Assembly: GCA_019055375.1 (NCBI GenBank)
Contig: JAHQIW010003685.1
Span: forward strand, 395,773 to 459,772
Reading direction: 5' to 3'
Length of the DNA stretch: 64,000 nucleotides
DNA from: Parelaphostrongylus tenuis
Taxonomy: Eukaryota; Nematoda; Chromadorea; Rhabditida; Metastrongylidae
The translations under genes were made by a program, and so were the position numbers. A model generated the notes under the pieces. It was not told the origin of the DNA. It saw only the letters and a program-made list of their open reading frames with translations, and made no database searches. Below, in pieces: positions 3,240 through 59,150 of the stretch. Numbering within the stretch: the stretch's first letter is position 1; every line of letters begins with the position of its first letter.

Positions 3240-4159
3240 ATTGTTATGAAAGAAAAAAAATTTTGGAGGGAAACTCGGAAAAAAGTGGAATTTTGCTATG
3301 CGAAGTAGTAGTGGTCGAAAATGAGGGAAAAAGTAGCAGCTTCCTTAATGGTTGTACAGTGAAGGAAGCTCACCATTGGTTTCCCTTCCACAAAACGCCA
3401 TTAGATTTTGTAAATCTGACGAAAAAGTTAAACTATAAAATTCCACAGAAAACAAGTTCAAAGAAGTAAGTTGATATTGACATCATGTGATAACCAAAAT
3501 AAATGTTGAATAATAGGAGAGAAAAAATCATTCGTACTTTATAAGGATAAGGCCATAAACAAGACTTTTTTAAATGCTCCACTATACAAGCACTAATATG
3601 CGGAATCAACAAAGGACTAATTCCAAGAATGCGATTTTCATTTGACTCTGTCATGATTGTTCAAAACCTCATACGAACTTTCCAATCAACTATTTTGAAG
3701 CCCCACTTGAGAATTTATTGTAGTTTAATAGAACGTTTTCAATTTTTCAAATGTTTGATATGGCATTTCCAGTGGTACGTTTCAACGTTCTCGTGCTAAA
3801 CTGACTATACTTTACGAGATTTAAGGAATTATCGATTGGAAGGTATTGTATATAACTTGCAGCAACTGTAAGCCATCAACTGAAAAATCGGCTAGTGCGC
3901 AACAAAGGGCGACATTTTACGTTGTTTGAACTAATTCATCTGCAACGTCGCTGCTATGAGTAGTAATGGTGGCCGTAAGGGTATTTGGCACTGATAAAGC
4001 GTGCAAGAACGTCGGAAAATACGTATACCATTGTAAATTCCACATCAGACCTCTGAATGGCTCATATTCTATCAGAATATATCATACGGACTATCCTTGT
4101 GGTAGACTGTTCGCGTTTGGTATACTTTCCTTAAAGACAATGGCTGAAAATCTCATAAT
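3240..4159. other. Non-coding stretch
   Basis: No gene, known repeat or convincing exon recognised. Short frames around 3263-3469 and 3433-3654 overlap on opposite strands and look like chance. Confidence 0.35.
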
Positions 4160-4208
4160 TGTTATCTGAGCCAACATATCATGTGTTCTCTTAATGGGCT
4201 GCTGTACA

Positions 4209-4251
4209 GCCCAATACACGTGTATCGACTCTGAAGTCTCGTCAGTCGGGC
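4209..4251 (-). ncRNA. Degenerate type I hammerhead, CACGTG family
   Basis: Minus-strand order: GCCCGA (stem I), CTGACGAG, stem II region, CGATA, CACGTG, TA, TTGGGC (stem I). The GAAA box reads GATA, so cleavage is unlikely. It is the left partner of the motif at 4506-4549. Confidence 0.5.
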
Positions 4252-4505
4252 AGAACCTTTCGTCTTTTTAGCCAATCCTCTCGGGGTGCTCCAGTCCTCA
4301 CGCTGATCAGTAGGCGACAACGAACGATTTACACTACACTGCCGTCGAGTGAAAATTACCAAAAACGGTAGTGTTGTACACTCGATTGCTCTTGGCTGGT
4401 GTTTTAAAATGTATTTTACCGTTCGTTTCGAGTGCTCGTCGTCGCCTACTCTTCGTGTGGGGACTGGAACACTCACAAAGGCTAGCTAAAAAGACGAAGG
4501 GTTTT

Positions 4506-4549
4506 GTCCGACTGATGAGGCTGTCAAGATCGAAGCACGTGTATAGGGC
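4506..4549 (+). ncRNA. Degenerate type I hammerhead, CACGTG family
   Basis: GTCCGA, CTGATGAG, stem II region, CGAAG, CACGTG, TA, TAGGGC. The CUGAUGA box is intact, but GAAA has become GAAG and stem I has a mismatch. Probably inactive. Confidence 0.55.
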
Positions 4550-4609
4550 TGAATGAGAGCCCATTAATAGACCAGGTGACATGTAGGCTGTGATAACAAA
4601 CACGAGATA

Positions 4610-5966
4610 AATTGAAATTTGAGAGCGGTCTCAAGAAAACGAAACGAACGGCACAATGGTTGATATTTCGGCAGTCTTCTCTTCTTGGAGCCGAGGCGTA
4701 ATTCAGCACACATTATCTACTTTATGTCTGTCTAATATCTACAATATAAAAAATTAGTGATAACAGGTACTATCACCAGAACTTTCCCCATCCTTGCTAT
4801 AAAGTAGGGTTCAGTGTGCGACATGTGCCTCTGATGAAGCGTGCAACAGCTAAAACGTATGTAAGCCACTGACGTATCAACCTCAAATGGCTCGAATTCT
4901 CACATACTCTTCTTATTCAGGTGATCTTTCCTATATCTTGACACACTATGACTAATTAATCTTACACAAATTAGCAGACAAATCTATTATTGGTTTCACG
5001 TCATTTGCGATATTCAGGCACTTAACCCTACCTTTGAATTTCGAATATGCAGAAGCTTTTATAAAAAAAAGTATCTTTCCGTTTTAAGCTCACTATACAT
5101 TGCTTTGCTGTAGACTGTTTGCTTACTTTTCAAACTGATCTCAGTTGCCTTTTCTCATAGCCATGTGAACATAGACCATTAGCTGGCTAAAAATGAGTAT
5201 ACGGCTTTTCGTGTTCATTAAAACATCCAAATGGAAAGCCGAAAAGTCGAATAGAATTACTCGCTAAGTGTACATAAGATACATAGGCACGACAGGTGAC
5301 GACTCGAAGTGTTGATGAAAATACTCGGCACCAGTCAAAATGTTAGCTTAACAAATTGAGGCCTTTCAAAATGATTTGACCCTTTCAAGACCACCAGTTG
5401 TAATCGTCACGTGCAGTGCAAATCGCAGCAGGTGCGCAAATTTGATATTTGATCAGGGTTTTTTCACCGTTTTCGAAGTGAATCTAAGGTTTTTTATAGT
5501 ATTCCAATACTTCACCATTTTCTCCAAACACCCATATGCTTTTGGTTTGGACTTACCGCTAACGTTTGAATAGAAAGCTATCTTTTGCTATGTGATAGTA
5601 GTGATTGTGACAATCTGCCAATTGTAGTAACTTTTGTAAAGAATATACATCATAAACCTATCAACCTTGATGTATATCTTTTATATGCATTACTTAAAGG
5701 TTATAACAGTGACTGAAAAATGGAGAACAATATACAATATGTTGCAAGGTTTTCCCCTACCCGCAGCCATATTCGAAAGAAAGTATTATTTATTATTTTT
5801 TGACGTTTTAGTAGTCATTCAGTAGAGTGTACCTCGTAAATTTGACCGGTATATTATAATGTTTTTTCTTCTTTTTGTTGGATAATAAAAATAAATTTTA
5901 TTTTACACCCAACCATTTCTCGATAAATAAAGCTTTTCTTTCAGACCTTATAACCATTCGATAGGA
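4610..5966. other. Non-coding stretch before the tandem duplication
   Basis: Only short chance frames. No splice-supported exon or recognised repeat. Confidence 0.35.
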
Positions 5967-23800: not shown

Positions 23801-26800
23801 GTGAATAAGAAACATCGCCCACTTTCGTTCCTTCGCCAATACGGTTTGTATTTGTATGAGAGCAATAAAACTTGATGTTATCTCAAAAATTAGTCGAGAA
23901 CCATTTTTATTCTATCGAGCTGTATGTCTTACTGACAAACCGAATAAAACTAAGGGTTGTAGAGCATTTATCGTTGCGTCATGATGTAAAATATACTCTA
24001 GAACTGCAAGATAGATTCAAAAGTGATCTAAATGGATTTTTAGGACAAAATGCTATGAAAGCACTTCCCCTCTATCTGGAGTATTTCATATGCCCAAAGT
24101 TGAACACCGAGGAATCGTGCAATGTAGTTTTTTTTTTACGTCTGGGCCACATATGAGGGCAGAGAACATTAAAGCAATGCGAAAAGGAATTCAAAAAGTT
24201 TTATTTCACATTATAGTTCTGCTATCGACTGCTTTTTTACAGACCCGCTCAAAATGATTTAATCTGATAAGGATATGACATATTTTGAGCCATAGGTCTA
24301 GTGCTATATAGGCGCCTATTTCGTCCTATTGGGACTCATCAGTAGCACCTCCCTCGGTTCCGCGATCCCTGAGGTGAATATCCTAGATAACTAATATCCT
24401 CAGATAAATCATTTGATTTTTATTATTCAAATATTATCCTCGATTAAATCATTTTGAGCGGGTCTGTAAAAAAGCAGTCGATAGCAGAAGTATAGATCAT
24501 TTTAAAAGCCGTAAGCTCGACTGCGCCGGTCACCACAAAGTCAGGTAATACCATCATCCTACTTTGGGTGATTAATTTTACTCGGCGTCGGTTCCTTTAG
24601 AGGATTATTTCACCTCAAGGGATCGACGGAACCGAGGGAGGGTGCTACTGATGAGTCCCAATAGGACAAAATAGGCGCCTATATAGCACTAGACCTATGG
24701 CTCAAAATATGTCATATCCTTATCACATTATAGTAGCAATTTTTTCCTGAAATCTGGTGAAGTAGGGGGCAAAAATTTTTTCGGAGATGGATGCGTTGAG
24801 GAAAACATCGACTCTTATTTCTTGGATGATGACGCCTCAAAATTATCTTAATCTCGCGTTTACAATGAACGTCATAGAGGAGTATTGTAATCCATAAACG
24901 CTGTAGTCCCTGAATTCATTTGCTAGTTCCGGGCAATATGACTATGGAAATGCCTTTATATGTGGAAATAGCTAATGCAGTGATCAAAGATATATAGAAA
25001 AAAACGGCAATGAGCGCTATCAAAAGCAACCTAGTCATTGATGTTTGAACAGTTCAAAGAGACTGGATGGCACAGCATAAGCAAGTGAACGCTCCCACAT
25101 GTATCATTAACATCGTGTGAACTTCTCGACGTCACTACTAGTTCTAGCCTAAAAATTTTCATGCGGAAACTAGAGTAGTGTGGCCACAGGTGTTCTTACG
25201 AAACTGTCGCAGTAATCGGTTCACAAAAGGAGTACTCTGAGGTTTCGATTCAGAAAGCCGAGACTGTTACAATTATTCGAAAATTATCATAAATGGCTGT
25301 CTCATGAACGTAATGATTCAAAGTGAGATATTCTCAACTCACCCTTTGTTTCCTGTTAACTTCACTGATAAGAACCATCATACTACGTTGTACGATTTTT
25401 TTGATGTTTGTAATCAGATAAATTACTGTTGATAATCGCATCAGGCGGTTGAATAATGTTAAAGTCCGTCTCACTGGATAAAGGGAGCAAAATGTTTTGC
25501 TGATATTATCATTATCACGTCCCTACACGACTCATTGCGATAATTTACTTTAAAAACAACCTTTTCTTATGTTTGCGAAAAAATGCGATGCATTCTCGAC
25601 CTCCGATTAGATTTAGACATTGATAACTTGTAGAAATTGCTCTATACGCTTCAAAGTATTCTTAAACGTTACTTGTACCTATGGGATGATCTAAAACTCA
25701 TAGAGCATGAGATTTTATCAATCGCCGTTATCAAGCAGCCTACATCTTAGATGGACAACCACTTCCTTGAAGCACTTGATTTACACACCTATTAAATCTT
25801 TGTTGTAGATGCTAGTGCCTACGCCGAAATACTGCGCTCAAACTAGATATATAGTAGAACAAAAACACTTATGAGAATACTAGTACAGTAAGGTTTACTT
25901 ACGTTACTCGATTAAACGTTATGTATTGTTCCTAGCATTTATCTCATTAGTTTATCACCATCCGTTTATCCGTTTGAATAAACACATTTGCAGGGAAGAT
26001 TATTCAAGTCTATAACACCTAGGAGAATTGAGTGGTGCACAAACATATCACATATCACGAAAAATATCACAGTAGCTGTCAGTTTAACTGGGTGTTCAAG
26101 GTGAAATAGCATACCCGACCAAATCTGTTAAAGAGAGCAAATGTGCGTCGGTGGTGTAGTGGCAGGACGCGCCCCCGGTATGGATAAAACGCGGGCTCGA
26201 CTTCCGTCTGAGATCGTACTTTGCTCAACACTCAATCCTCTTAGGTGTATTGGAAACATTGTACCACTGCGAAAAATTCAGTTAAAGATTAGAAATCATA
26301 TTATATATAAAAATTATATATTATATATTAGAACATTACATATCAAGTCTAAATTTTTCTGCCAATATGCTATGCTATATCAATGGTTTACTTGCCGCTA
26401 AATCATACTATTTACCAAACTCAATCTCTTGCTTTTCGTGACTCCACACACATCAGATTATGAAGCGCCGTCTGGAGTCCCTCGGAACTTGCAAACAGTA
26501 TATGAAAGAAGCACAGATGAGTAACACAATGGAAGTGGACCTTAATGACGTCGTAAATCTCACAAACATCTTGGACACTGAGTTGCAAGCTAACGTGAGG
26601 CTACGGTTATTCATTTACTTATGTCATTTCTTACTTTGAAATACTTTGTTATAATGAATCGCTCTGTTTTGTTCCATATTTGACTTGTTTTCTCTAGAAA
26701 TGCAATTATTGTTTCGCACTACTCATGCCGACCTCATTATGTAGCGTTTTCTATATGCACCTCGAAATGTGATCTCATTTGTAGTCCTGTGAACCATTGG

Positions 26801-29800
26801 GGTACTAAGAAATGAAATCGACATCACCATTCGCCTCAACAGGAAGCGTTTTATTAGCTGAACAAAAATCTCAAATAGTCAAGGCAAAATAAAAATAAAA
26901 GGCATTCAAATCATACCTGGTTTCGAAAATTTTTCTGAAAGACATAACAATTATATTTACAACTGCTCATAGTTCTTGTGGAGGTCAAACTTAATCTACT
27001 GTACTTTTCTACGATTGCTGTTGAACAATGGACATCGATTTTCGCTCACCCAATAGTTTTCTTTTCTCTTTCAGCAACTATTTCAACTTAAAATCGTCAG
27101 CTTAAATCAAAACTATAACCATTTGGTCCGTGCTTATGAAATGATTAACACTAATCAGTGTTATAGGAGTGTTAAGCCACATTTTAACGTTATTGCTATC
27201 GCAGTGTACATTCTGATGTCATTTCTCTAAGAAGGCTTCAGAGTTTGTGTGATGGTACATTTACAATAATAACAATAAGTACAATAAGTATAACAATTTT
27301 CTGAGCCGAGTACTATCCAAAAACTTTCCTTGTGTTAGATCCCATAGGGCGATAATGGATCGCAATTAGAAGCTGTACATTACTAAAGTGTTGTTCTACG
27401 TAAGATGAATATAGAAGTCAAAACTGAATTCATTGGAAGGTTGCAAATCTAGTCCTACAGGAACCCCAGCCCTCTCTCATTTCGAAACACTTCGGTAATC
27501 TATATTACAACCTAGTGGATGCTAATATAAGTTAATCAGCCTATTGTCAGGACTGACTATCGATTGAGCTTAGCATTAGTTGAGGAACTCGTAGTTTTTG
27601 AATAGACACTAGACTGTATAGACGATTTACTATACAAATTTATCGGTTTACGATTCCGCACTTTCGCCTTTAGAGGCTGGAATTGTCAAACTGAAGTGCA
27701 ATCTACTTAACCAATAATCATTGTGTCGGTCCACTAGCTTATATGCAGCTGTATCGATGCTTATTTGCAATTCACCGTTGGAAACGAATCAGCTTCTTTG
27801 ATTTAAAGGCGTTCAGTCTGATTTCTCAGTGCCTGGATATCAAAAACCTTTTTTATCATCAGTGTGCTTCATTGTCACTTGGTACATCAGAATCTCTTTT
27901 TTTATGAGATCGAATTTTTGAGTTGACAGAGTCCGTCATTTGATGTTTTTCATAAGGTTGGCAATTCCATCCAATGCTCATGATCGACAATCTCAAATTT
28001 TCGCTTCTCCATCATCACTAAATTAGATGTTCGTAAAGTCCATACCTAAAGATGTCCTCTGGAAGATCTATTATCAAAAGTCAATTCTGACTTGGACCCA
28101 CACCCGTTATAATTTTTCTGGACTATACGGTAAGCAACCCACAAGCTACATATAGATGATGCATAACGCTATTAGATAAACGATTCCAATTTTTTTATGA
28201 GAGGCTCGTAGCCCTCCTTCCTCTTTCTCTCTCTCTAGCCCACAGTCTGAGAAGTTTAATTGTAAAGTATAACCGCTGATAGATGTTTCCTTAACTAAAT
28301 TCGTAGTAAACCAGTGACCAAAGAGCCGTGAACTCTTAGAAAATGGTTATTGATTATCTTCATCAATTCTCTGTACTTAAATGATGTGCGTGGTACATTG
28401 TTTGGATGCTTGATTATGGATGTCTATCCTGAATCACAATTTTGCGGATTGATACATTTTCATAATTTTCAGCTACATATGATGCTTGTTGAAATGCCTC
28501 GCCTGGAAAATGTCTTTCGCGTTTCTGAGCTGAAAATGTTCGTCAGCATTGGAGCGAATTATGTTAAGGTCGTAGTCAATATTGCCACTTCTTCATACAT
28601 AATCTCTGCATTTGTCGACTTTTCCGAGTCGTTTAATTATAAATGCGCTGAAATAAATGTACATTAGAAAGTAGTCATCTTCAGACTCTTGTCGGAGAGA
28701 TGAATATTTCTTAGAGAACTCCTAATGTACAATTGAAACAATGAATGAGCACTTCAGCACGCTGTTTTAATAAAGCTTCTGTTTTCACACAATTACGAAT
28801 AGATTTAAGGTAGTACTGAGGACAGCTAAGCAGATGGTTGAAGCTCTCTTCGTCTTCTATGTCTACGTAATTTTTCGTGATTCTGTGAATCTGATCGAGA
28901 ATTATCGCACAGATGTCGATTTCAACAACTGCTTCATAACCAGGTGATTTTTATCGACTACTTTTGCTACAGAGATGAGGTTGTAATGGTTTAAGACGCA
29001 ATGTATACGGTGATAAGCAAGACGCTGGTTCGATCCCCTCTATCATTACCCTCTTGCAATGCAAGCGTCTCAGTATGACTACTTTCAAGATCGCAGAGAG
29101 AATTGGCTCGACCAGCATTCTGCGACTCCCTGAGAATACAAATTTCTCGAGCAACCAGCCAAAGCAACATGTGAGATGTTCGACGATCTCCATGGAGGAT
29201 GATTGTGAGGAAACGAATTTGATGCAAGAATTGCTCATATTCACGCAGTAAATTGTGACGGCGGATCGAGTGAAATAAAAGAACTTCTAACAAAAAGAGA
29301 GGAATCTATATGATATCAGCCAAAACGATGCACAGTAGACCGCTGACATCAATCAAGATGTTTACACAACATATTTCATCATACTGAATCCAGGTCCACG
29401 CAGTTTGATTGCTCACGAAGTATTTAAATTCTACAGGTTAGCTAATGTAATGGACTAATGCAAAAATAGTATTATTCATATTAAAAAATCGGGCTGTACA
29501 ACAGCCCTCCAACATAATTATGAGATATATTGAAATTTGAGCGTGGTCTTAATAAAATACTCGAAATAGAAGGTATAAAATGCAAAATATTAACCATGAG
29601 CAATCGAGTGTGTCGAAAATTGCCGATCTTGTGATTTTTCTTTGACGGCGATTGTGTAAATCTTTCGTCGTCGTCTATCGCTTTATAGGGGGATGTAAGA
29701 GCCTCCGAGAGGATTGGTTAAAGACGAAGGGCCTACCCGACTGACAAGGCTGCAAGACCGAAACACGTGTATTGGGCTGTACAAGAGCCCTTTAACAGAT

Positions 29801-32800
29801 CACATAATATCTTGGCTTTGAAAATAATTATGTGATATATTGATACAAAAAGGCTATTTCTGTATCATTGACTACTTTTATAGCCACTTAACTTAGAAAG
29901 AAGCCGCATCTAAGCAAAAGCCACGATAGTCGAGATAAATCTTCAATTAATAACTAACTATAATCATAATAGGGAGTACATAACTTGATTTATATCATGT
30001 TAAGTTAAAGACCATCGTTAATTCATGCAATTCAAATATGCATTGCATGATTTCTATCGTGCCGTGCAATTGTTGCAAACTTCCAGTCTCGACCTGTCGG
30101 GTTCCAAATACATAGTTTTTGATGCAGCGATTTCTGCTTTAAATCTCAGTTCATCGAAACTTACTGGAATGGCTTCGCATCACAATACAAATTTGGTATA
30201 TATGTGACAAACCTATCTGCCCACTTATCCACTCAGTTTACTGATTTGATCATTCTTACATTATCTGCAGTCACCAGCTCTACATATACCTCTACTAATA
30301 TGTTCATTTATCAACAGCATAAGTTCAAAGCGATTCCTCAAAACAACGTGCAAAAACACTTGAGAAAAGGATTCACGATACACAGTTGCATCGCAGAGCA
30401 TAAATTCTATTGTCAACAATAACCACTTTTACAAACAATTGTTTATATTGCTCATTAGAAAACATTGGCGTTGCTCCCACTACCAGTAGGCTTCGCTTCG
30501 TCTCTTCTCAAAACCTATATCTCAGTGACTACAGAATCCTCTCTAGTGACATTAAAAGTTTGAGTTTTGGTACGAAACCGCAACAATATCACGTAGCGCG
30601 TTTTGACTGTCGATCGACTAAGCCATGTTCCAGGCTAAAAGTTAACGTGGTACCCCTATTGTTGGTTATCTCGGATTTGATAAAGTTAGGTATTTCACAT
30701 CGTCAATCATCACTAGAGATGAATGAATGTACATATAACCTATGGAATAAGCTGCCAATGTATCAAATCAGAGCTGCTATCCTCCCATTTAAATTTGTTA
30801 CTAATTTAAAGACTCTCCAAAAAATCGAAGGTCTGCTGAATCTGGGGAGTGGGGTCAAATCAAAAGCCACACGCGATCACTCTATTTCTAATACGCTAGG
30901 GGAAATCGGACCTCAATTTTTATGTAATTATTCGCTCACGATAATGATATTTTTTTAGTATGTTCTGGCAGATTGATCACCACAGAGAAATGCTTGGACA
31001 GCAAGCTATCCGTTTCATTTCTCATGAAGAGATGAAAAACTGGAGGCTTATGAATGTTTTCAGGTTTTTTTTTTGCCAGTATCATTTATCATAACTTAGC
31101 AGCAAATATATTTGCCTTGTGTTTTGCACTGCGAAACAGGAAAATGCCGGAAGGTTTTTTCTGAATCGTCGAAAAGTGCTATTAGCATGGCTAGCAATAC
31201 CTCGTCTTCGGAACTAAATCAATTCCAGTCAATCGTCACTTAGTGACCTCTACAGAACTGCTAACTGTTTTGTTCTCGGATTTCAGCAAACCGACTACTG
31301 CCGAAATGATTCGCGCGAAAACCTCCCTGATAACATGGTTCATCACAGCATGTTCTGCAGCGTTGCTGATTTTCCTCGATTATTACTTCTATTCCTTTCT
31401 CAATGCGGTATGATAACCTCTATAATTTTGCTTTGTTTTAATTCTTTTCCCTTAGACTGAGAGAGTTTATTTTCTGAAGATTTAAATCTGTTGTCTTTAC
31501 ATAACGAGAATTTTAATGTTTTTCCGCTTGTTCTGTTCTCCTTCAAACGTCAATGATAAATGGGGCTGAGTTCATGTGAAATGTCAACTAGAATTTAGAG
31601 ATCTATTGCACTTACTATTCAATGGCAAATAGACTGCTTGCTGAGCATGAATTTCTATGGGAACTTCAGATAGCCAGGCGCTTCCTGGTCTTCACTGTAA
31701 GAAGCCGTCAGTCCTCGATGCATGGAGTGAGGAAATGATCTCGTGATTCAAATTTCCTTTGACGATTGGGATCTTCGCATTTGGACAGTTGCTCAATTAG
31801 TGCATCAGCATCCATTGCTTACTATGAAAGGGAACTATTTGAAACTTTGACACATATAATCAATGCCTTCAAGAATCATCAAGTTAACACAAGATTGATT
31901 CTAAACATTTACTCGGCTGAACGTTCTCAATTCGCCCCCACTTCCGAGCCGCGTTCATCTGAGTTGATGGACCATAACTAATTGATATTGTGACGTAGGT
32001 GTTGTGGCACATGGATTGGAATTCAGTAAAGGAATCCTTGTTCATACAAATCTTCAGTGAAAGTCGCTTTATAAAATATCACCGCTTCACGTAGTTACCG
32101 CTCCACATATCAGCGTTGTATGAAGCACCGAGTCCCATAGTATATATGGCCAATAGAAAAGCAGATAATATTGTATTACTGGCCATGGATCACTATCCTT
32201 CTTCTATAAAAGGACATAGTCACGTGTAAAAGCTTTATTCGAATGGTGCTTTTCATTGGAATCGGCTTGATGTAATACCGAAGACCCACACGTGACGATG
32301 ATCAGCTGGGTACCACCTACTTCAATCAACGCTATTTCGAGGAAAGAGAAGACTCTAAACATCAACCGAAATAAGCTTTAAGCAATCTCGAGTTTAATCT
32401 ATAGTCCAGAAAGTAAAACAATGTTATTATACGTCTCATATTACCGTATCTCAAGACTTCAAACAGTCAGTGATAACGAAAACTTTTTTGTTAGTTTATT
32501 TCTCCACAGAGAAGGAGTTTCTCTCAGTCCTTCACTTGAGGACCGCTGGTTCTAAGTAGAACTGAGAAGGTTTTTTAGGTAACAAACAATGATTTCATGC
32601 GCATCATCAAGAGAAGAACGCTTTAAAGATCAAAACAATCTAGTCTTCATCCTTCTAAATTGATCGCCTTTCTTAAATAAGAATATCAAATAAGTTGACA
32701 GATATTGGGTATCAATAATCAATCGGATTCCATTCATTTGAGCGCCTTTTTGCGGTGGTATGCTCTCTTAATATACCCGATAATGTAGAGCGCTGTGCAA

Positions 32801-35800
32801 ATCTGCGTCAGCCGGGATTCGAACCCAGATCTCACTCTTTCCGGGAGCGTATGCTAACAGTTGCACAACCGACGCTCGTTACTCATAGCACTCGTTCTAC
32901 GATGCAACGTGTTACCTGTTTACAGCCAACCGTCGACGGTTTGGCGGACCAGCCGCTAACGGTAGTATTGAACCCACTTTTGTTGACAGATATTGGCTAT
33001 CAATAATCAATCGGACTTCATTTATTTGACCACCTCTTGCGGTGGTATGGTCTTATAATATACCCAATAATGTAGAGTGCTGTGCAAAAACATTTGCGTC
33101 AGCCGGGGTTCGGACCCTGTTAACAGATGACTCGTTGTAGCGTAGAGCGAGTGCTGTGCAAAACGAGCGTCGGTAGTGCAACGGTTAGCATACGCTCCCG
33201 GAAAGAGTGGACCAGGGTTCAAATCCCGGCTGACGCAGATGCTTTTGCACAGCACTGTACATTATTGGGCATATAATAAGACCATACCACCGCAAGAGGC
33301 GGTCAAATAAATAAAATCCGATTGATTATCAAATAAAATCATAAGATCAACTGCTTTTTAAAACCTCGTGATAAACATTCAAAATAATTCCGAAAAAAGA
33401 GATGTTTTAAGCCTAAACGAGGTTGGTACGCCAGGGCCATACACCGGTGTTTCGGAGGTTTCGGCCTCCTTGTCAGTGACCCTCGTCCCACATTATATCC
33501 TGCATTGTAGAAAGAAGGGAGGCGTATGTGGTGATGGCATAGTGTACAATGACACTGGTCCATCACCACAGTTTAGTCGATGGATTTCGGCTGGTAGACC
33601 AAAATCGATCCATAAGATCGACTGTTTTTTGAAACCTCGTGATAAGCATTTAAAATAGTTAAAAAAAAGAATTTTGGTCTACCAGCCGAAATCCATCGAC
33701 TCAACAGTGGTGATGGACCAATGTTATTGCACACTATGCCATCACCACATACGCCTACCTCCTTGCTACAGTGCAGGGCTTAATGTGGGGCAGGGGTCAC
33801 TGACGAGGAGGCCGAAACCTCCGAAACACCGGTGCATGGCTCTGGCGTACCAACCTCGTTTAGGCTTGAAACATTCTTTTTTTCTGGAATTTTCAAATAA
33901 GTGTTTGAAACAAGGAGACTGCGCGAAGGAAAGTGTTAGGTGAATTACAAGAGAACGCGCTTTAGATAAGTGCTCACTTATGATCAATGAGATTATTTGA
34001 AGTGACTTTAAAACCATGCACATTGTACCTAAAATGGTGGCGTAGATGCTAAGAAAGAAAGAGACCGTAATATATGTACTGTCGCAAAACAAATTAAAAC
34101 AGAAAATGAGCTTTTCTCATGAAAAGATGAAATATTGGCCGCTAGAGTGGTCTACGCAATGATCTCCATTGAATGAGAATTTCTTCCAAGTGGAGAAAAT
34201 GAATGGTAGTGGTTGTTGTGAGATTATCTTTCTTCAGGTTGTATCAGCTTCCCATACAACCATTGAACAACTGAGTTCTTCTAGTGCAGCTATCGACGTA
34301 GGTCTTATTTGTGCTCACTGTTGTTCTCTCACGTATTTTGAATCGCTAATTCAACATAGATGCTCGCTTCTCTTAATGAGCAGATAGGTTGTCAAAAGTA
34401 ACATTTTTGTTTGTGTCACAAAAAAAGTGTGACATAATAAGCGAAGTAATAGACTAATGTCTGACATTTCGACGGTCTCGCCTCCTTTGGAATTTGAATA
34501 GGTCAAATTTACAAGCAATCACTCAAACAATCTGGTAATCTCAGCAAAAACCACTCTGATATATTTTCACATCGCAAAGTGACAGCTTCTTTGAACACTC
34601 ATCGTTTTGCTTTTTCCAAATCTTTCAAATGTAACCATAATTAGAATATTTGAATGCTCTTACAATCAAAAATTTTTCCTTGTAAGCCAGATGCGAAGCT
34701 GCTATAATACGATTAATTCATAAGCTGACATTTCAACAGTTTCGCGTTCTCCAGAACCGAGAAGCATCAGGATGCCCAGAACCCACTCAGCCAAACATCG
34801 CCATTACTCAACAGAAGAAATTACCCAACCTCGATTTTGATCGCATCAAGCACAAAGCAACTTTTCAACATACCATCCTTTACGAATATTCCCTCAAGTT
34901 ATGCAAGTGGCAGAATACCGTCCAGATGCCACATGGACTGAGAATGCACCTCCATATCAAGAAGCGGTCTCATATATAATAATGCGTCATATCATGTGTG
35001 ATAACGAAGTAATGCTTTTGAGGTTCACGTTTGAATTTATGGCGTTTTCCCCAAAATATTCCTAAAATCTAACGCATTGGGACTCTATGTTCCTGTGCGG
35101 AGATAGTTTACCTCTTCTTCAAAATTCTTCCCGTTATATGTCTGTGTCCTCCCAGTGGAATGTTGATTTAGCTTTGAGCCCGCAGACTGATATTTTTCTC
35201 CACGGACACAGAGCGACCTAGTCATTTTCTCGATGTATCTGTCGCCGCGCACTTTACAAGAGACTGGGCAAACTATGCATGTCCTTATGCAATCACCGTC
35301 TTTATCGTGAGGGCATAGTATGCATTCTTGCTTCGTACATAGACGGCCTTGTAGCGGCTGTGAATTGGCTGGACCCTTACAACAATCGATGAAAATCTAG
35401 TCATTGTTACCTATTTCTCTAGACCTACCCTAAAACAGCGTTTGATGCGTGTTTCGTTTTGAGAAACGCGGGATAAACGGGACTCTGCCTTTGCTGAAAT
35501 TATCATTTCGCGACTTATAAAATTCACTGAACCTCTCTCGAGAGGATACGTGTTCGTATCCATTGGAAAAGGCTGTTTACCTAGCCAGTGCTAGACATTA
35601 TACCTCCGCTGTTCTCGTACACATTCTGGATGCTGTTTACAATATGTTTACTAGAAGAGCCTTCTTTGTATTTGAGAGATGAGAAGAGAGATAATGAACA
35701 GTATATTTTGTTAATTGGGTCACGGTACCATTTGGTACTGTAACCGTTTTCGGGCAGTTCAGTTTATACACTTGACAAATGAGAGCCAATTTTTGGCATC

Positions 35801-38800
35801 TTATAGCTAAATTCTGTATATTCTATCTGTTTGTGAATTTGCAGGCTCTAAAAGAGGTGAAAGCGGCGAAATATCAGCTTATCGAATAAATCATATAATA
35901 ATAACCTTGCGTTTTGCCTTTAAAGAGAAATATGCGATCTACTAAAGAATGCTGGGATTAATGAGAGTTGGTCTCGGTATGTTTGTACTGAAAAAATTGA
36001 AGTAGATGAAGGTGAGTATATCGAATAAGGTGGTCTTCTGCGATCTAAAGAGACGTCACAGATTTTCTTCTGCTGAGAAAATGAAACTGTTTTATTAAGT
36101 AAATGACATGTCAATTTGACCTTTCATTGCACTGAGAAGATGCATTCTACTATTAGCAACCTTACATCTGCTTATCAAGAGAAGCGCTGAATTCTCCAAT
36201 CATTGCCGGCGTTGTTGGATAGTCGCCAACGAAAGCTGTTATCTTATCTAAGTTCATTGCTGATAAGCGCTTACCATGCCAAACCTGCTGAAGCTTGGTT
36301 GCTGGTAGCCACGATGGTTTGCATTAAAGAAAAGTGGTAGCAAAGCGGTTTCATCGATAGCGTAGTGATAGCCACGTTACCGGTATGAGTGACACGCGAA
36401 TTCAACTCGCCCCTGATGTCAAAGAATTTGCGTTCCACCGAACATTATTGAATGAATTGATTCTGGCCGCTTGAGCACATACCACGCAAATCATTTGCTT
36501 TAAGAAACTCAGAAAAAGTGAACTTTGTATTTTTTTGAAGCTTTAGAAAAAGGCGGCTCACACCAACAAATCGCATTGCTATAAATTTTTTCTTTTAAAA
36601 AAGTTTTTAAAGAGCCTATACACGGTGGGATTTTGTACCCATCAAGATGTGATCAATCGTTATACAGTCAGTCAAAAAAGTTCATATATATTTAAGGCAT
36701 ATGCATATATATAGATATATACATATATGTATAAATATAAAGTTTCCTTACAGGTAGAAGGTGACGGAGTTGTTGCAAACCTCATACGCTCAATGGTTGC
36801 CGAAAATCGCACGCTAGAGGTGGATAGCGTAAGTTCATCTGAATTGTTCCATTATTCGAAATACATCTATAATCCATAAAAGGCGTCTGAAATTTCAGAG
36901 CATGAGCAACGCTCATTGCCTACTGCCGCCACAGCAACCAGACTTCCGTCATATCCTTACTTGGATAGCGATGCCTCTATTTCTTTCGCTTCTTTCTGCA
37001 AGTAAGAACTCTGCGATAATTTAGTCTGGCTGTACAGTTAGACCACGAGACTATTTAGGTGATTTTTTCCTTCATTGTAAAACGAATTGTTCTCAATCAC
37101 TTCTTACCATTTATGTTTCCCCTAAGAGATCGTGTTCGCATTATTCATCTCTATAACAAGGTTAGTTATGATCTATGTTTAGTGCAGTTAATATCTCAAA
37201 ACTGTTTATGTGCAAAATATCTAGATCTCGAAACGTTCTTTTTAATCTGATCACAACAACTCTTCAAAATGCATGCCAAAGCAATCCTAAAAAGTTGTGC
37301 TTCAACAAAAATTTTGAGGTTCTATTTCTAAGAATCAAACATCGTACGGAAGCAAGAGCTCGAATCCGCTTTTGTGTTGAGAGATGGAAGATCAACGAAG
37401 ATAATGATGAAGGGTTTGGACGCATTCCTTTTTGACCTCATAAGAGTCATTGAGTAACTTGAGCGAATACTAGTATGTTTTTCCTTGCCCAGGTATAAGC
37501 TCACTTAATCTTACCTGAACCTCGCTACTGGAAATGCCAGACTCATTTTATTATGGAAGACCCTACTGGTTATACTTTAGAGAACTGAGTGATGAGCAAA
37601 AATACGACTTCAGCTGGGAGTCAAACCCGAGTTTCATCCATAAGCGAGACGCGTGCTATCACTGCACCACCAAGCTACATTTGCCCCACCACTCATTTTT
37701 CAATATCTTCGTAAGGGCTGTCAGTCACCAACATTATACAGGTTCGGTCGAGTATGCGATTTCTCTTCAATAAACCCAGCTGAGCTGATAGCCATTGTGA
37801 TATGTAGTACTCGAAATTTCTAGTAGTTTTAATGCCTTTTTTCGCAGTGGTATCATGTTTAATATATACCCTAGATACTTGAGTGGTAAGCAAAAATAGT
37901 AAAAAAAAGGCAGTAAAACTACTAGTAGTCTCGAGTATTACCTATCACAGTAACTGCCAATTCAACTGGGTTTATAAGGCGAAATAGCATATGCCTTGGA
38001 ACCATTTTTGAGCCATGCATGTCAGTGGTCTGTCAATGAGGGCTGACTTATAGAGCCCGATACACGTGCTTCGATCTTGCGATCTCGTCAGTCGGGCAGT
38101 TACCCTTTCTCGTCTCTTGCTATTCCCTGTGGGTGCTCCAGTCCCCACACTAAGAGTCAGCGACGACGAGCGCTTTGCACTGTATGTCCAGTGAAAAACT
38201 CACCAAACACAGAGTGTTGTACACTCGTTTGCATATTCAATATATCAAAACGTTTGTTTCGAGTGTTTTCTTAAGACCACGCAAAGCATATTGAATTTTG
38301 AGCCGTGGTCCTGAGAAAACACTCGAAACGAATGTTACAAAATAGCATACTCGACCAAAGCTTTGAAAGGTTTGTGGCTGACAGCTATCATAGAGGAATG
38401 AGTGGGGAGGGCCAATGTACCTCAGTGCTGTAGTGGTAGCACGAGTCTCCGGCATAGAAGAAACGCGGGTTCGACTCCCGTCAAAGGTCGGGTTTTTGCT
38501 CACCACTCAGTTCTCCAAGTCATATATGGAACATCATAACACTGTGAAAAAAGGCAGTGAAACCACTTAAAAATTTCACGTATTACTTCTGGTTATATAA
38601 TCCCTCTGTCCTATACTGCAGTTATCTAGAAGCACCCTTAACGATATTAAGGCGCTCACTGTTAGGGAGAAGATTGAGAGTTTGAGATCAGAGGAGTATT
38701 TTTTATGCAGAACACAGGCATAATTTCTCGAAATGATGGTCAGCTTCATCTTAACTGCTACGTTCGCATCTTGGTCAAGGCGTACCATTTCCTATAATGA

Positions 38801-40497: not shown

Positions 40498-40707
40498 AAT
40501 CTGTGGTTCTCGGAAACATCTCGTTGCTTATACGTCATTGCTTCAAAGACAATTGTTGATTTTTTTTACAGCACTCAATTCGAAAGCGAGAGCTAATGTA
40601 TTTCAAGTGCATATAAATTCATTTCCCATTAAATCGTTGAACACTGTTGTTACTTTCATTATTATTTGAGCCAACATGTCATGTGGTCTGGTAAAGGCTC
40701 TTGTACA

Positions 40708-40750
40708 GCCCGAGACAAGTGTTTCGTCCTTACAGACTCATCAGCCGGGC
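40708..40750 (-). ncRNA. Intact type I hammerhead ribozyme, CACGTG family
   Basis: Minus strand: GCCCGG, CTGATGAG, TCT-GTAA-GGA, CGAAA, CACTTG, TC, TCGGGC. Stem I pairs 6 of 6 (one G-U), stem II 3 of 3 (one U-G), and the cleavage triplet is GUC. Stem III is only about 2 bp, so activity may need dimer formation. Confidence 0.83.
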
Positions 40751-40874
40751 AGAACCTGTCGTCTGTCGATCTTTTCATAGTCAGTTCTCTTGGGAGCGTC
40801 ACACTCCTCATATATAGTTATCGACGACCTACGCTTTACACTCTATGTCAGGTGTCTATGTCATTCACCTAACA

Positions 40875-40911
40875 CTGATGAGTCTGTAAGGACGAAACAC
40901 GTGTCTCGGGC
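40875..40911 (+). ncRNA. Hammerhead core lacking 5' stem I
   Basis: CTGATGAG, TCT-GTAA-GGA, CGAAA, CACGTG, TC, TCGGGC are perfect, but the six bases upstream (CTAACA) do not pair with TCGGGC. The 5' side of stem I was replaced at the foldback junction, so it is predicted inactive in isolation. Confidence 0.75.
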
Positions 40912-41221
40912 TGTACAAGAGCCTTTACCAGACCACATGACATGTTGGCTCAAGTAATAATGAAAGGATCTATTGAAATTTGAGCGTGGTCTTAATAAAG
41001 CACTCGAAGGAAAGGTATAATATGATAAAATACCAGCCAGCTAGCAATCGAGTGCGAAAACACTTTGTGTTAGGTGAATGACATAGACACCTGACATAGA
41101 GTGTAAAGCGTAGGTCGTCGATAACTATATATGAGGAGTGTGACGCTCCCAAGAGAACTAACTATGAAAATCCAAAAAAAAAAGAAGAATGGTTTTAGCC
41201 TAAAACGAGGTTGGTACGCCA

Positions 41222-41269
41222 GGGCCATACACCGGTGTTTCGGAGGCTCGTCCTCCTCGTCAGTGACCC
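41222..41269 (-). ncRNA. Intact type I hammerhead ribozyme, CACCGGTG family
   Basis: Minus strand: GGGTCA, CTGACGA, GGAGG-ACGAG-CCTCC (5-bp stem II), GAAA, CACCGGTG, TA, TGGCCC. Stem I is 6 pairs with one wobble, the A15.1-U16.1 pair is present, and all core bases are consensus. Stem III is a palindrome: 2 bp with a CCGG loop as monomer, longer as dimer. Confidence 0.85.
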
Positions 41270-41388
41270 CCGCCCCACATTAAGCCCTGCATTATAGCAA
41301 GGAGGGAGGCGTATGTGGTAAGTGGTGATGGCATAGTGTACTATGAGATGGCATAGGACTATGAAAAGATCGACAGACGACGGGTTCT

Positions 41389-41431
41389 GCCCGGCTGATG
41401 AGTCTGTAAGGACGAAACACGTGTCTCGGGC
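41389..41431 (+). ncRNA. Intact type I hammerhead ribozyme, CACGTG family
   Basis: GCCCGG, CTGATGAG, TCT-GTAA-GGA, CGAAA, CACGTG, TC, TCGGGC. Stem I 6 of 6 with one G-U; stem II 3 of 3 with one U-G; triplet GUC. Predicted cleavage follows 41425. Stem III is the palindrome CACGTG, which suits a dimer. Confidence 0.87.
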
Positions 41432-41609
41432 TGTACAAGAGCCTTTACCAGACCAGTCAAGAAAGAGGGTTTGCTCTGGAAATATCCAGCTTACCGAATA
41501 CTTCAATATCCTTTCTTGTCCTTTTCCAAAATCATCTCATATTACAAATTATTTCATAATTATTATTTGGGCTAGCATGTCATGTGGTTTGTTAATGTGC
41601 TATTGTACA

Positions 41610-41653
41610 GACCAATGCACGTGTTTCGACCTTGACAGTCTTGTCAGTCAGGC
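41610..41653 (-). ncRNA. Degenerate hammerhead, CACGTG family
   Basis: Minus strand: GCCTGA, CTGACAAG, stem II region, CGAAA, CACGTG, CA, TTGGTC. G8 is A and the U before the cleavage site is C. Inactive remnant. Confidence 0.6.
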
Positions 41654-41875
41654 TGTACCCCTTCGTCTTTGGACAATTCTCTTAGGAGTTCCTACTCTCC
41701 CTTCAGAAAGGTAGGCGACGGCGACGAACGATTTACGTAATTGCCCTCAAGTGAAAATCACAAGATCGGCAATTTTCAACACTCGATTGCGAATGTGTAA
41801 ATTGTTTGTAATCGCCTACATCTTCATAGGTAGAGTAGAGACTTCCAAGAGGATTGGCTAAAGACAAGGGGTTCT

Positions 41876-41918
41876 GCCCGACTGAGAAGATTGTAAGGTC
41901 GAAACACGTGTATCGGGC
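41876..41918 (+). ncRNA. Hammerhead with mutated G8, CACGTG family
   Basis: GCCCGA, CTGAGAAG, stem II region, CGAAA, CACGTG, TA, TCGGGC. Stem I is perfect over 6 bp, but G8 reads A. Confidence 0.65.
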
Positions 41919-42229
41919 TGTACAAGATCCCATTACCAGATCACATAACATGCTGGCTCAAATAGTAATTATGAGATGTATTGAAATTTGAGAGTGGTTT
42001 CAATAAAATATTCGAACTAAAGGCCTAATATTTCAAGTTTATTAAAAGTGTAAAAAAATGCGCACTAGAAATGTAAAACAAGCAAATTTCCTGTTGTTTT
42101 ATAAGCGTTTCATAAAAGAGAGTGCTTACAACTACTAACTATTACTATACTATTGAAGAAACTTGACGAGTTTATACACTTACAGCTCATGTTTGTAAGC
42201 AAACTGTTGAGCATTCGCATAAATTTAGG

Positions 42230-49032: not shown

Positions 49033-49117
49033 GTTAGTTACAAGCACTTGATTCCTTTTTCTATAATCTGATAACATATTTTAAGTCTTTCATGAGGCCT
49101 GTTATGGCACTTATATA

Positions 49118-49160
49118 GTGCAAAACACGGGTTTCGGCCTTTCAGCCTCATCAGTTGCAC
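49118..49160 (-). ncRNA. Intact hammerhead core, GTGCAA stem I variant
   Basis: Minus strand: GTGCAA, CTGATGAG, GCT-GAAA-GGC, CGAAA, CCCGTG, TT, TTGCAC. Stem I is 6 of 6 Watson-Crick pairs and stem II 3 pairs. All core bases are consensus, with a GUU triplet. Stem III is minimal (1-2 bp). No partner copy of equal quality was found; a decayed one may exist near 48366. Confidence 0.8.
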
Positions 49161-49318
49161 AGTGCTTTTCGTTTAATCCAATTCCTTGTAGGATGGACTC
49201 TTTAGATAGGAAGAAAATCGACGACGAACCACTTACACTGCCCTAAGGTAAAAAGTGCATCCGTCGTGTCTTAAAGTCGATTACTTGTGGCTGGTAAAAC
49301 TTATCATGTAATACCTTT

Positions 49319-49711
49319 CTTTTCGACTGTCCACTGCTTCGTCTCTACCTACCATTCCTCCCGCATCAGTTCAGGCATTGGGGACTTAAATATTACATAA
49401 GAATATACGTTATTAGATGCAACACTGAAAAGTTAACGATAATCATTCAAAAAAGAGAAATTACGATGTTTTGACCCAAGTCAATAAAAAGTGCCATAGG
49501 CGCTCCTGATGCCAAGAATTGTTTAGACGTTGAGAATCAGATGACCGAGAGTGTTGAACATAAAACAGTAATAGTAGCTGGTTTTCATGAAAGTCGTATA
49601 TATGGCTAAAAGATCCCCGAAACACAGTGGCCCAAAATTACATTCTTTAAGCTATCGGCACGACGTGCCTTTCCTTACTCTTAAGCGACCCTTTGAAGAC
49701 GCTTTGTTAAA
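49319..49711 (+). repeat. Left arm of 393-bp inverted repeat
   Basis: Reads as the exact reverse complement of 50713-51105 wherever checked, with equal arm length. The arm contains CCACTGCTTCGTCTC, GCTATCGGCACGACG and a frame starting MKVVYMAKRSPKHSGPK that is present in both arms; no family was recognised. Confidence 0.85.
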
Positions 49712-56659: not shown

Positions 56660-56765
56660 CTCTGCTATCGACTACTCTTTTACAGATCCGCTTAAAACGA
56701 AGTAATCTGACAAGGATATGACTTGTTTTGAGACGATAAGTCTAGTGCTAGCACTGCGGCTCAAA
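56660..56765. mobile_element. Shortened TAGGCGCCTA-family element without its hammerhead
   Basis: GCTATCGACTACTC..CAGATCCGCTTAAAA and AAGGATATGACTTGTTTTGAG match 24219-24300. Where the ribozyme should be, only AGTGCTAGCACTGC remains, that is, the two stem I strands nearly fused. It abuts the 3' end of the RTE copy. Confidence 0.6.
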
Positions 56766-59150
56766 ACAGAACAGCCCCTAGCATAGTTGCTTCGACTGCT
56801 CGTTCAGTAACGCCAAGTGATCTTTTATCCTTCTTACGTAGCGACCAGGTTTCTGCTGCATATGTTAGGGCAGGGATTATTGCCGAGTCGAAAAGGTGGC
56901 CAGGGTGTCGGATGTTATTTCTTTCTCTTCTTGTTCTCTTCACTGCATTTTCAATGCTCTTCAACGTTCACCAAGCCGCTTGTTTCCTCTTACTCAACTT
57001 TGGAGCTAGGTCGTTCATCATGTTGATTTCACGACATAGATAGATGTAACTGGAGCGTTCGGACATGTTCGTTTTGCTAAGCGTGAGCGGAGCATTCCAA
57101 ACCCATCCGTTCTTCGTGAACATCGTTTTCGTTAAATTTAGTCGGAGGCCAGTCTTTGCAAAAGCGTTGTCGACATCGGTCAATATTCGTTCTGTTTGTT
57201 TAAGGTTTGGTATTATGAGGACGATATCGTCAGCGAAGCGAAGATGATGTAATTGTCGACAGTTGATTTTCACTCCCATATCGTCCCGTTCTAACGTTCG
57301 CATAACATTTCGGAAGGTGGCCAGTGAAAAATTTTGGCGAATTTGTATCGCCTTGTGAAGACCTTTATCTTACGTCGTTAGTAGTATTGTTGTAGAATGG
57401 CGATAATTTAGTCGTGAAATCTTGATATAGCTTACAAAGGATCGTTATGTGTCTGGTAGGGACGCCCTGTTTATCCAGAGAGTCTATAACCGCTTCTGTT
57501 TCCTCTGAATCAAAGTTAGCGGTATCTTGCACTCTTGTCAATTTGAATGAGTCTTGTGAATGTACCGATGTGGTCTTTGGTACTAAATCATTTTCGCAGC
57601 CTTACTTGTTCGCATGGCTGTCCTTCATCCAGTGTTCTGTCAATCCTGTTTTGGATGACTCGAGTAAAGAGTTTATAGACAACGGACAGCAAGCAGATTA
57701 GGCGTTAAGTGCCGATTTCGTGAAAGCCACCCTTCTTGAACGACAACACAGGTTTGCTAGCTTTTCCTTTGAATGGGAAACTTACATTCTGACAGGCAGC
57801 GGGTGAAGAGCCGAGTCAGGGTGTTGATGAGAATTGGAGGTGACTTCTTCAGGTGTTCCGGTCTAATTATGTCTGGAACAGGTGTTGTTTTGTTCTTCAC
57901 CGACGATATAGCTTGTCGGATTTCGGCTGGGGGAAACGTTGAGACGACAGATTCGTCCTCTTTCGATTTATATGACTATAACAGGACATGGCTAGCGAAG
58001 AGATCCAAGTAGTAGTGGTGGATGATCTTCTCTATTGCCTTTCTGGAAGCTGTAAGTGTCACCTCAGGGCGTCGGAGTGCAATTATCTTGGTCTTGTAAC
58101 TGGCGAAGCTTAGCTAGGCTTTGCGAGTGCTCTTCCTAGGTTCTTGCCATAACTGCTGCTCAGCTCACTTTGAGGTCTTCTTTTATCGCTTTTCCGCAAA
58201 GTTTCGCAAGCTCGCACGCATCCTTTCGATTGCCTGTAGCTCCTGTGATTCCACGTTGTCGTAGACATATCAACTCGAGAGTTTGCGGAGACAAGCGATT
58301 TCGTGACTATAGGACACTCGGCTCTCATAGAACTAACATGAAGATGTTTGACGAGCCGTTCGTATTCTTAGTCGATTTTGTCAACGACGGTTTCTTTCGA
58401 ACGACTAATGCCTCGATAGTTCTGGGACTTCGCTGTTTGAACTTAGCAGTTTTCTCTCCATTTCGCAAAAAATAGTTTAGCGAAGGAGACGTTCGTTTGA
58501 TTCAGTGTAGAACTTAGGAAGAACAAGGACATCGGTCAGGCAGAGCCTTCGATTTACTAAGATGTGGTCTATCTTGTTTCGGTACTCTTCATTCGGATAG
58601 TCCCACGTCCACCGTTGAGAGTGAGACTTTTGGAATTGTGAGTAATCATGGACGGCTTGGGTCGCCATGATAAACTCAAATAACCTCCTACCCTGTTCAT
58701 TCCATTCTAGTCCTTGGGTCCCTATGTGACGTTTTTCAGACGTTCTTCCGTCCGAGGTCCAATCTTCGCCTTAAAATCTCTGACAACGACCTTCAAGAGT
58801 GTATGATTTTCTCTGAAGAATTTTTCGTGATCCATATATAACGCTTCGACTTCGTCTTCGTCATAGCTTGATGTTCCTGCGTAAGCAACGAAGACGGTCA
58901 AAGCCGGCATAGAACCAAATCGTTTCAACAGTAATCGTCCGATAGGCGTTGTTAGTTGTTCAACTGAGTCGATGTTCACGACCAAATTCGGTTTGACGAG
59001 GACGCCAGCGCCGCCGACATCCTGCTATCGCACGTTCCAAGGAGCAATTCTTCTCCGGTGTCACAAACATCGTGAAAAGTATGGCGTCTTCTCGTCTCAG
59101 CCATGCCAATGACGTCGAACTTTATCGCTCTTTCTTGAATCAATAGATCA
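56765..59150 (-). mobile_element. RTE-type LINE, nearly complete but dead copy
   Basis: Minus strand from about 59150: a endonuclease domain (VIGMAETRRRHTFHD.. near 59100; YDEDEVEALYMDHEKF and LLKVVVRDFKAKIG near 58850; [20 protein letters not shown] near 58600, with the catalytic D-H pair), then reverse transcriptase. The RT shows LSINSLLESSKTGLTEH (57700-57640) and RQLHHLRFADDIVLIIPNLK (57270-57210) with the FADD catalytic Asp pair, LRLNLTKT, INMMNDLAPKLSKRKQAAW, and finally ALTYAAETWSLRKKDKRSLG, ending at about 56770 where another element begins. Several frameshifts. Such endonuclease-RT proteins are abundant in parasitic worm genomes. Confidence 0.85.

Follow-up and report, generated by a model that had tools for sequence, protein, structure and literature searches.

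What kind of element places six hammerhead ribozyme motifs on alternating strands within 1.2 kb of nematode DNA? The locus lies in a 64-kb window (the whole stretch of Parelaphostrongylus tenuis DNA analyzed here, 64,000 nucleotides), and a first-pass annotation, made from the letters alone, had read it as a protein-less foldback family with strictly alternating motifs. The hammerheads themselves are real, since a match to the Rfam type I model lies above the cut-off and a structure scan scores well above shuffled windows. Specifically, the type I covariance model (RF00163), the check that the annotation had proposed, gives 34.9 bits to 41389-41431(+), exceeding its cut-off of 34 bits, and 31.8 bits, slightly short of it, to 40708-40750(-). 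The structure scan, which counts five stem I, three stem II and two stem III pairs beside a near-consensus core, found eight motifs with 9 or 10 of the 10 stem pairs in the 64-kb window, compared with three motifs with 9 pairs and none with 10 in 30 block-shuffled windows. Five window motifs combine a perfect core with the full set of ten pairs: 24342(-), 40744(-), 41263(-), 41395(+) and 49154(-). Stem changes were tallied by script rather than taken from alignments. Stem I pairs covary between families (e.g., GCCCGG/UCGGGC, GUGCUA/UAGCAC, GGGUCA/UGGCCC), a list that serves as an illustration because its extraction demanded some pairing, the structure scan being the control. A 104-nt stretch around 41389 does not fold with a lower minimum free energy than its shuffles, which is uninformative either way.

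The annotation was also right that three of the six motifs are intact. These are the type I hammerhead at 40708..40750(-), with 10/10 stem pairs; the family B hammerhead at 41222..41270(-), found by the structure scan, whose stem III is the palindrome ACACCGGTGT; and the type I hammerhead at 41389..41431(+), with 10/10 pairs and predicted cleavage after 41425. The motif at 40875..40905(+) is halved, as it misses the 5' strand of stem I and retains 2/5 stem I pairs; its type III Rfam score of 36.9 lies below that family's cut-off of 48.5. The other two have lost core bases: 41610..41647(-) is decayed (core CTGACAA, 0/5 stem I pairs), and 41876..41918(+) keeps its stems with one core base changed (CTGAGAA). 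The same core-base loss, CUGANGA to CUGANAA, is common to the old hammerheads at 29741(+), 33476(-), 41647(-) and 41882(+).

How these six motifs came to lie together became apparent when a natural unit of 323 nt, taken from contig C885 and numbered from its predicted cleavage site between GUC and U, was used as a BLAST query: it resolves the 1.2-kb region into three insertions. The first, the family A element A1 (40653..41455), is head-to-head: its minus arm (40653-40878) covers unit positions 1-61 and 159-323 and holds the intact 40708(-) hammerhead, and its plus arm (40875-41170 and 41357-41455) covers 293-323, 1-265, 255-323 and 1-30 and holds the intact 41389(+) one. The truncated 40875(+) motif sits at the head-to-head junction, where the plus arm begins at unit position 293. 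Both ends of A1 are of the proximal type defined below (61 and 30) and lack a TSD, making it an exception to the family rule, perhaps through later trimming. The second insertion is a one-arm family B element on the minus strand (41171..41356), nested in the A1 plus arm at unit position 265 and flanked on both sides by the 10-bp TSD ACTATGAAAA. The third, A2 (about 41550..42031), is an older head-to-head family A element carrying 41610(-) in its minus arm and 41876(+) in its plus arm; its left end lies near unit 56-61 (proximal, boundary not sharp) and its right end at unit 118 (distal), and the longest common word of its flanks is just 7 bp. Because three separate insertions are nested or adjoin in this way, the strand alternation is a coincidence and not the design of one unit. 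The order of a minus copy on the left and a plus copy on the right, also noted in the first pass, is real and general, but the pair listed at 41.2 kb is no pair, since 41222(-) belongs to the nested B element.

Further copies lie elsewhere in the window. A head-to-head element at 24212..24730, with a distal end at unit 95, a proximal one at unit 47, the TSD TCACATTATAGT and an intact minus hammerhead at 24301-24349 (structure scan), represents a family C with the palindrome AGGCGCCT, a third beside the two sequence families already recognized. A head-to-head family B element at 33338..33893 has an 8-bp TSD (TCAAATAA) and ends +102 and +57 after its cleavage sites; the core of its minus hammerhead is changed (CTGACAA). 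Old family A copies include a head-to-head one at 4150..4640 (67-84% identity to the unit, no TSD found), one of which only the plus arm is seen, ending at unit 71 (29489..29843), and, from BLAST with the unit, two minus-strand copies at 38007..38282 and 49086..49322, the latter with an intact hammerhead at about 49119-49160. Several other repeats were observed in passing. A single-strand family C fragment (56661-56750, 86% identical) adjoins an RT remnant at 56971-57369, and 34723-34873, 72% identical to the terminal repeat of a young Penelope-like element (PLE) on contig C416, is an old PLE remnant. Left of the 33.4-kb B element, tRNA-family matches at 32804-32875(-) and 33167-33237(+) have nearly the same sequence in opposite orientation and are possibly a tRNA-derived repeat pair.

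A search of the genome (481.5 Mb, 5105 contigs), in which copy numbers of A, B and C are lower bounds, places these copies in a wider context. The family A unit measures 323 nt, with many 97-99% matches among the best 40 of 2723 first-look candidates scored, and forms an array of about nine units on contig C4968. Family B has a spacing of about 270 nt and 89-92% identity in its best full-length matches (40 of 2518 candidates scored), and family C has a unit of 284-285 nt that is tandem in L024. The idea of a single foldback family therefore gives way to three unit families, whereas the view of the motifs as multicopy, retrozyme-like type I hammerheads holds. Tandem repeats of 323, 284-285 and about 270 nt fall within the range of retrozymes (~150-450 bp), which likewise carry a type I hammerhead with an intact core. 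In agreement with the first reading, which saw no protein of the elements' own, no known protein was recognized in the units; the C4968 array is crossed by an antisense frame open over 238 aa, whose Pfam matches are all below cut-off. At ~300 nt, the units are too short for the ORF with telomerase-like RT and GIY-YIG that marks a PLE. The nematode host was also correctly guessed, and the genome resembles that of a strongylid: one protein fragment matches Necator and Heligmosomoides, covering 13-16% of the query, and a PLE endonuclease gives a 79% match to Parelaphostrongylus. Taken as a whole, sequence comparison suggests that A, B and C are nematode retrozymes probably copied into the genome by PLEs.

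The neighborhoods of the elements were surveyed in 20 larger regions containing 40 ORFs of at least 130 aa (some being duplicates of one palindrome). A Pfam scan of 18 of these ORFs gave RVT_1 in L009 (below cut-off) and L022, Transposase_1 in L024 and L028, and no GIY-YIG. The Transposase_1 pieces, partial DDE domains, lie near hammerhead elements at L024:8417-8896 and L028:5709-6164. Separately, C821:10500-34000 (L009-L011) is a large inverted duplication of ~19 kb, each half of which contains RT pieces and one family C-like hammerhead. These two hammerheads, 19 kb from each other, were considered as the inverted ends of a large element, a reading rejected because the structure is a palindromic duplication with a single hammerhead copy per half.

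The arrangement of the copies bears most directly on how they were inserted. Both strands are present in 25/40 A loci and 23/40 B loci, the minus part lies on the left in all 48, and none is tail-to-tail; the remaining 15/40 A and 17/40 B loci show a single strand only. The 15 resolved family A insertions each have a proximal outer end, 17-76 nt past the cleavage site, and a distal one, 92-129 nt past it, a pattern that random re-pairing of the 30 ends reproduced in 14 of 100,000 trials and that holds for 15/16 insertions once the non-fitting window A1 is counted. Besides A1, this set leaves aside five one-arm insertions (L043, L050, L051, L055 and C4968) together with L035b, which reaches the end of its contig. 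All 30 A ends are more than 10 nt away from the cleavage site, and the template thus ran across it. An alternative map based on 33-nt matches, in which arrays stop at the cleavage site, was rejected, as the unit-based map puts the ends 17-129 nt beyond.

Similar paired ends are found in the other families. Family C shows one proximal and one distal end in 9/12 two-strand copies and in 6/6 young ones (L012, L018, L021, L022, L025 and the window copy), where one end lies at 18-51 and the other at 90-100. Among old C copies, whose ends are read less surely, L015 (58/85), L016 (42/94) and L028 (94/42) fit, and L009 (74/26), L014 (42/56) and L031 (73/42) do not. In family B, both insertions measured conform (+57/+102 and +60/+104). 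Measured from the GGCTCAAA motif, which is found in A and C, the proximal ends fall at 13 to 34 in 11/15 A insertions, the other four lying before the motif (-25 to -11), and at 15 to 35 in five C copies; distal ends fall at 50-87 in the 15 A insertions and 74-84 in the five C copies. As for TSDs, an exact one of 9-15 bp, often overlapping the element end, flanks 12/15 A insertions (the exceptions being L036, twice, and L044); by comparison, a word of 9 bp or longer is shared by 3.8% of 342 mismatched flank pairs. In a set of 19 insertions, 14 have a word of at least 9 bp; for two of these, both one-arm, it is not counted as a TSD, since it lies inside the element (L055) or is a TA-rich repeat (L051). 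Young C copies have TSDs of 12-14 bp in 5/6 cases and old C copies one of at least 9 bp in 0/6; B insertions have 8 and 13 bp, in addition to the 10 bp of the nested copy; and neither A1 nor the older A copies (A2, 4.2 kb, L027) have one of at least 8 bp.

Inverted arms with flanking TSDs are what a DNA transposon or foldback MITE would show if a hammerhead happened, by chance, to lie in its terminal inverted repeats. Such an element has the same terminal sequence at both ends and a TSD of fixed length, neither of which is found here: outer ends lie at different unit positions in 30/30 insertions (A 16, C 12, B 2), TSD length varies from 8 to 15 bp, arms are unequal in length and may contain tandem units, and the single-strand loci show no second arm. 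This origin is therefore barely credible, and the foldback as a transposon design of its own, as first proposed, does not stand, since unequal ends, variable TSDs and tandem multimers match the head-to-head product of PLEs instead. Head-to-head terminal parts, a TSD and an optional 3' tail at one end, the marks of PLE insertion, characterize the elements with the exception of A1, L036, L044 and three old C copies. A1, the A insertions that lack a 9-bp TSD (L036 twice, L044) and the misfit or TSD-less old C copies count against the involvement of PLEs.

A different mover would be the machinery of RTE-type LINEs, with ordinary twin priming. Twin priming likewise gives head-to-head inversions with TSDs of this size (8-15 bp), which counts in favor of LINEs, as do pieces of LINE-type RT (the LINE label being assigned by eye) in the window (RVT_1 at 56971-57369), L009 and L022. 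Nevertheless, the ends inspected have no poly(A) tail, the elements end in two internal zones and not at one fixed 3' end, and the same paired-end anatomy is found in a PLE of this genome. Retrozymes moved by LINEs are thus unlikely.

PLEs are indeed abundant candidates for the role of mover. PLEs, known here from their 3' parts and endonuclease domains, yielded 1723 candidates for a PLE-type GIY-YIG, of which 150 were scored; all 150 pass the cut-off, with open frames of up to 902 aa, and neighbors within 6 kb among them are arranged 20 times head-to-head, twice on the same strand and never tail-to-tail. PLEs are described as having head-to-head pLTRs, TSDs of 8-10 bp and an optional 3' tail in the sections drawn on from PMC3846280, the tail being about 30-40 bp long (PMC3846280, PMC11167929, in part). 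The very young C416 PLE carries a minimal hammerhead (CUGAAGA..GCCGAAACGUC) in its terminal repeat. Among the 40 of 2715 candidates that were scored, this repeat recurs with 99-100% identity. The element is head-to-head, its outer ends lie about +66-71 and +103 past the cleavage site, and it has a 12-bp TSD (ATACATGAATCT); five further PLE copies end at about +102 to +110. A second PLE has nothing but the minimal hammerhead in common with it over the 301 bp read. BLAST of units A and C against the C416 terminal repeat found no significant similarity, which counts against a link to PLEs; given the shared end positions, it follows that retrozymes and PLE share insertion anatomy but not unit sequence. 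Additionally, A and C have two predicted hairpins downstream of the hammerhead, the first spanning most proximal ends and the second holding the distal ones. Compared with mononucleotide shuffles, hairpin energies are better in A (z -3.9) and C (-2.3) and no better in the PLE (0.63) or B (-0.28), the latter again counting against PLEs, and a role of the predicted hairpin as a shared recognition feature is a suggestion only.

Since PLE terminal repeats likewise have type I hammerheads and sit head-to-head, the units might be mere detached pieces of PLEs (pLTRs) with no retrozyme life of their own. This appears very improbable, because the units have a stem III of at least 2 base pairs with a tetraloop, as opposed to the minimal hammerhead of the PLEs in L059 and L066, lack significant similarity to the C416 terminal repeat (which represents one of several PLE families here), form arrays of near-identical 323-nt units, and have no PLE GIY-YIG in the 18 neighboring ORFs scanned.

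Returning to retrozymes copied by PLEs, private variants provide information on the template. In the C885 insertion, 19C, 88C, 204T and 262C occur on the minus arm, and 19C and 262C recur where the plus arm covers them; elsewhere, 257T is present in every covering unit of C818, 261A in L044 and 203G in L041. In line with one template per insertion, the arms differ at 23/2866 aligned sites (0.80%) in 13 insertions, compared with 1.37% for permuted arms, and 0/2000 permutations gave a value as low; this all-site test was preferred to an informative-site version (4/63 mismatches), which is biased by the choice of sites. L045 arms differ at 1/7 informative sites and L032 arms at 3/6, implying that two templates were used in L032. 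In none of the 13 insertions do the two arms have their inner ends at the same unit position, and the junction is therefore not the tight palindrome that self-priming would give, although fold-back with a large loop at the junction may be envisaged from these ends. Tandem near-identical units running across an uncut cleavage site fit circular and multimeric RNA alike. A rare variant recurs exactly four units apart in two arrays (258C in L057/L058 on C885 and 108G in L047 on C4968), a spacing that may point to a template of four units or be due to chance or assembly error.

Accommodating these features, a tandem array of ~270-323-nt hammerhead units would be transcribed into RNA that stays continuous across the cleavage site, either as a multimer or as monomers cut and re-closed into circles. 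A PLE protein would bind the unit RNA and open the target DNA, and each target 3' DNA end would prime RT at one of two internal zones, the proximal one or the distal one about 40-50 nt further. The two cDNAs would run toward each other, often over several rounds of the unit, and be joined in head-to-head orientation between TSDs of 8-15 bp. The hammerheads, tandem units, head-to-head order, unequal paired ends, TSDs, alleles common to arms and units, and the abundant PLEs (one family being very young) of like anatomy are read from the sequence, whereas self-cleavage, RNA circularity and the PLE as the enzyme are what we infer in this scheme. A more specific version, in which a ribozyme-made circle is the template and PLE RT primed at both cut ends rolls round it, producing tandem head-to-head arrays in one reaction, is a serious possibility to which we give slightly less than an even chance. 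As reported in the sections used from PMC11167929, purified PLE protein cuts and extends both strands, and RT starts internally at two adjacent sites bounding the tail. There, insertion by an anole PLE in vitro had no need of hammerhead cleavage and unprocessed RNA was the main template, and circles may thus not be required. If the circular template is correct, the head-to-head shape of PLEs in general would result from priming twice on sense RNA and not from self-priming on antisense RNA. More generally, paired end zones, head-to-head order and TSDs common to a PLE and three protein-less families of different sequence would constitute the genomic footprint of the mover, and bear on how PLEs make head-to-head copies, in a nematode system whose recent copies are very similar (97-99% in best matches).

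Metazoan retrozymes and PLE hammerheads are already known; retrozymes in nematodes and PLE-type paired ends on retrozymes look new, as no report of either was found in the part of the open-access literature covered by our search. According to the portions of the papers compared here, metazoan non-LTR retrozymes (Cervera and de la Pena 2020, PMC7229834) resemble families A-C in their type I hammerhead, monomers of 170-400 nt, tandem copies, non-autonomy and co-existing PLEs, and share with family A a stem III of two base pairs with a palindromic tetraloop. By contrast, head-to-head arrays and paired end sites, found in families A-C, are not described for metazoan retrozymes in those portions of PMC7229834, the main text of which does not contain "nematod" or "inverted". 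The same study suggests LINEs or PLEs as retrozyme movers, favoring PLEs and leaving the enzyme open. Penelope/Poseidon-type PLEs (PMC3846280, PMC11167929, portions compared) are alike in head-to-head order, TSDs, tandem copies, type I hammerhead and, owing to two RT start sites, an optional 3' tail; the units of families A-C, on the other hand, lack an RT/GIY-YIG ORF, contain a fuller hammerhead and do not resemble in sequence the PLE terminal repeat with which they were compared. A hammerhead and non-autonomy are also combined in plant LTR retrozymes (PMC4918200), for which circular RNA has been proposed as the template; according to the relevant section of PMC7229834, however, their hammerheads are of type III and lie in LTRs, and Gypsy machinery is their likely mover.
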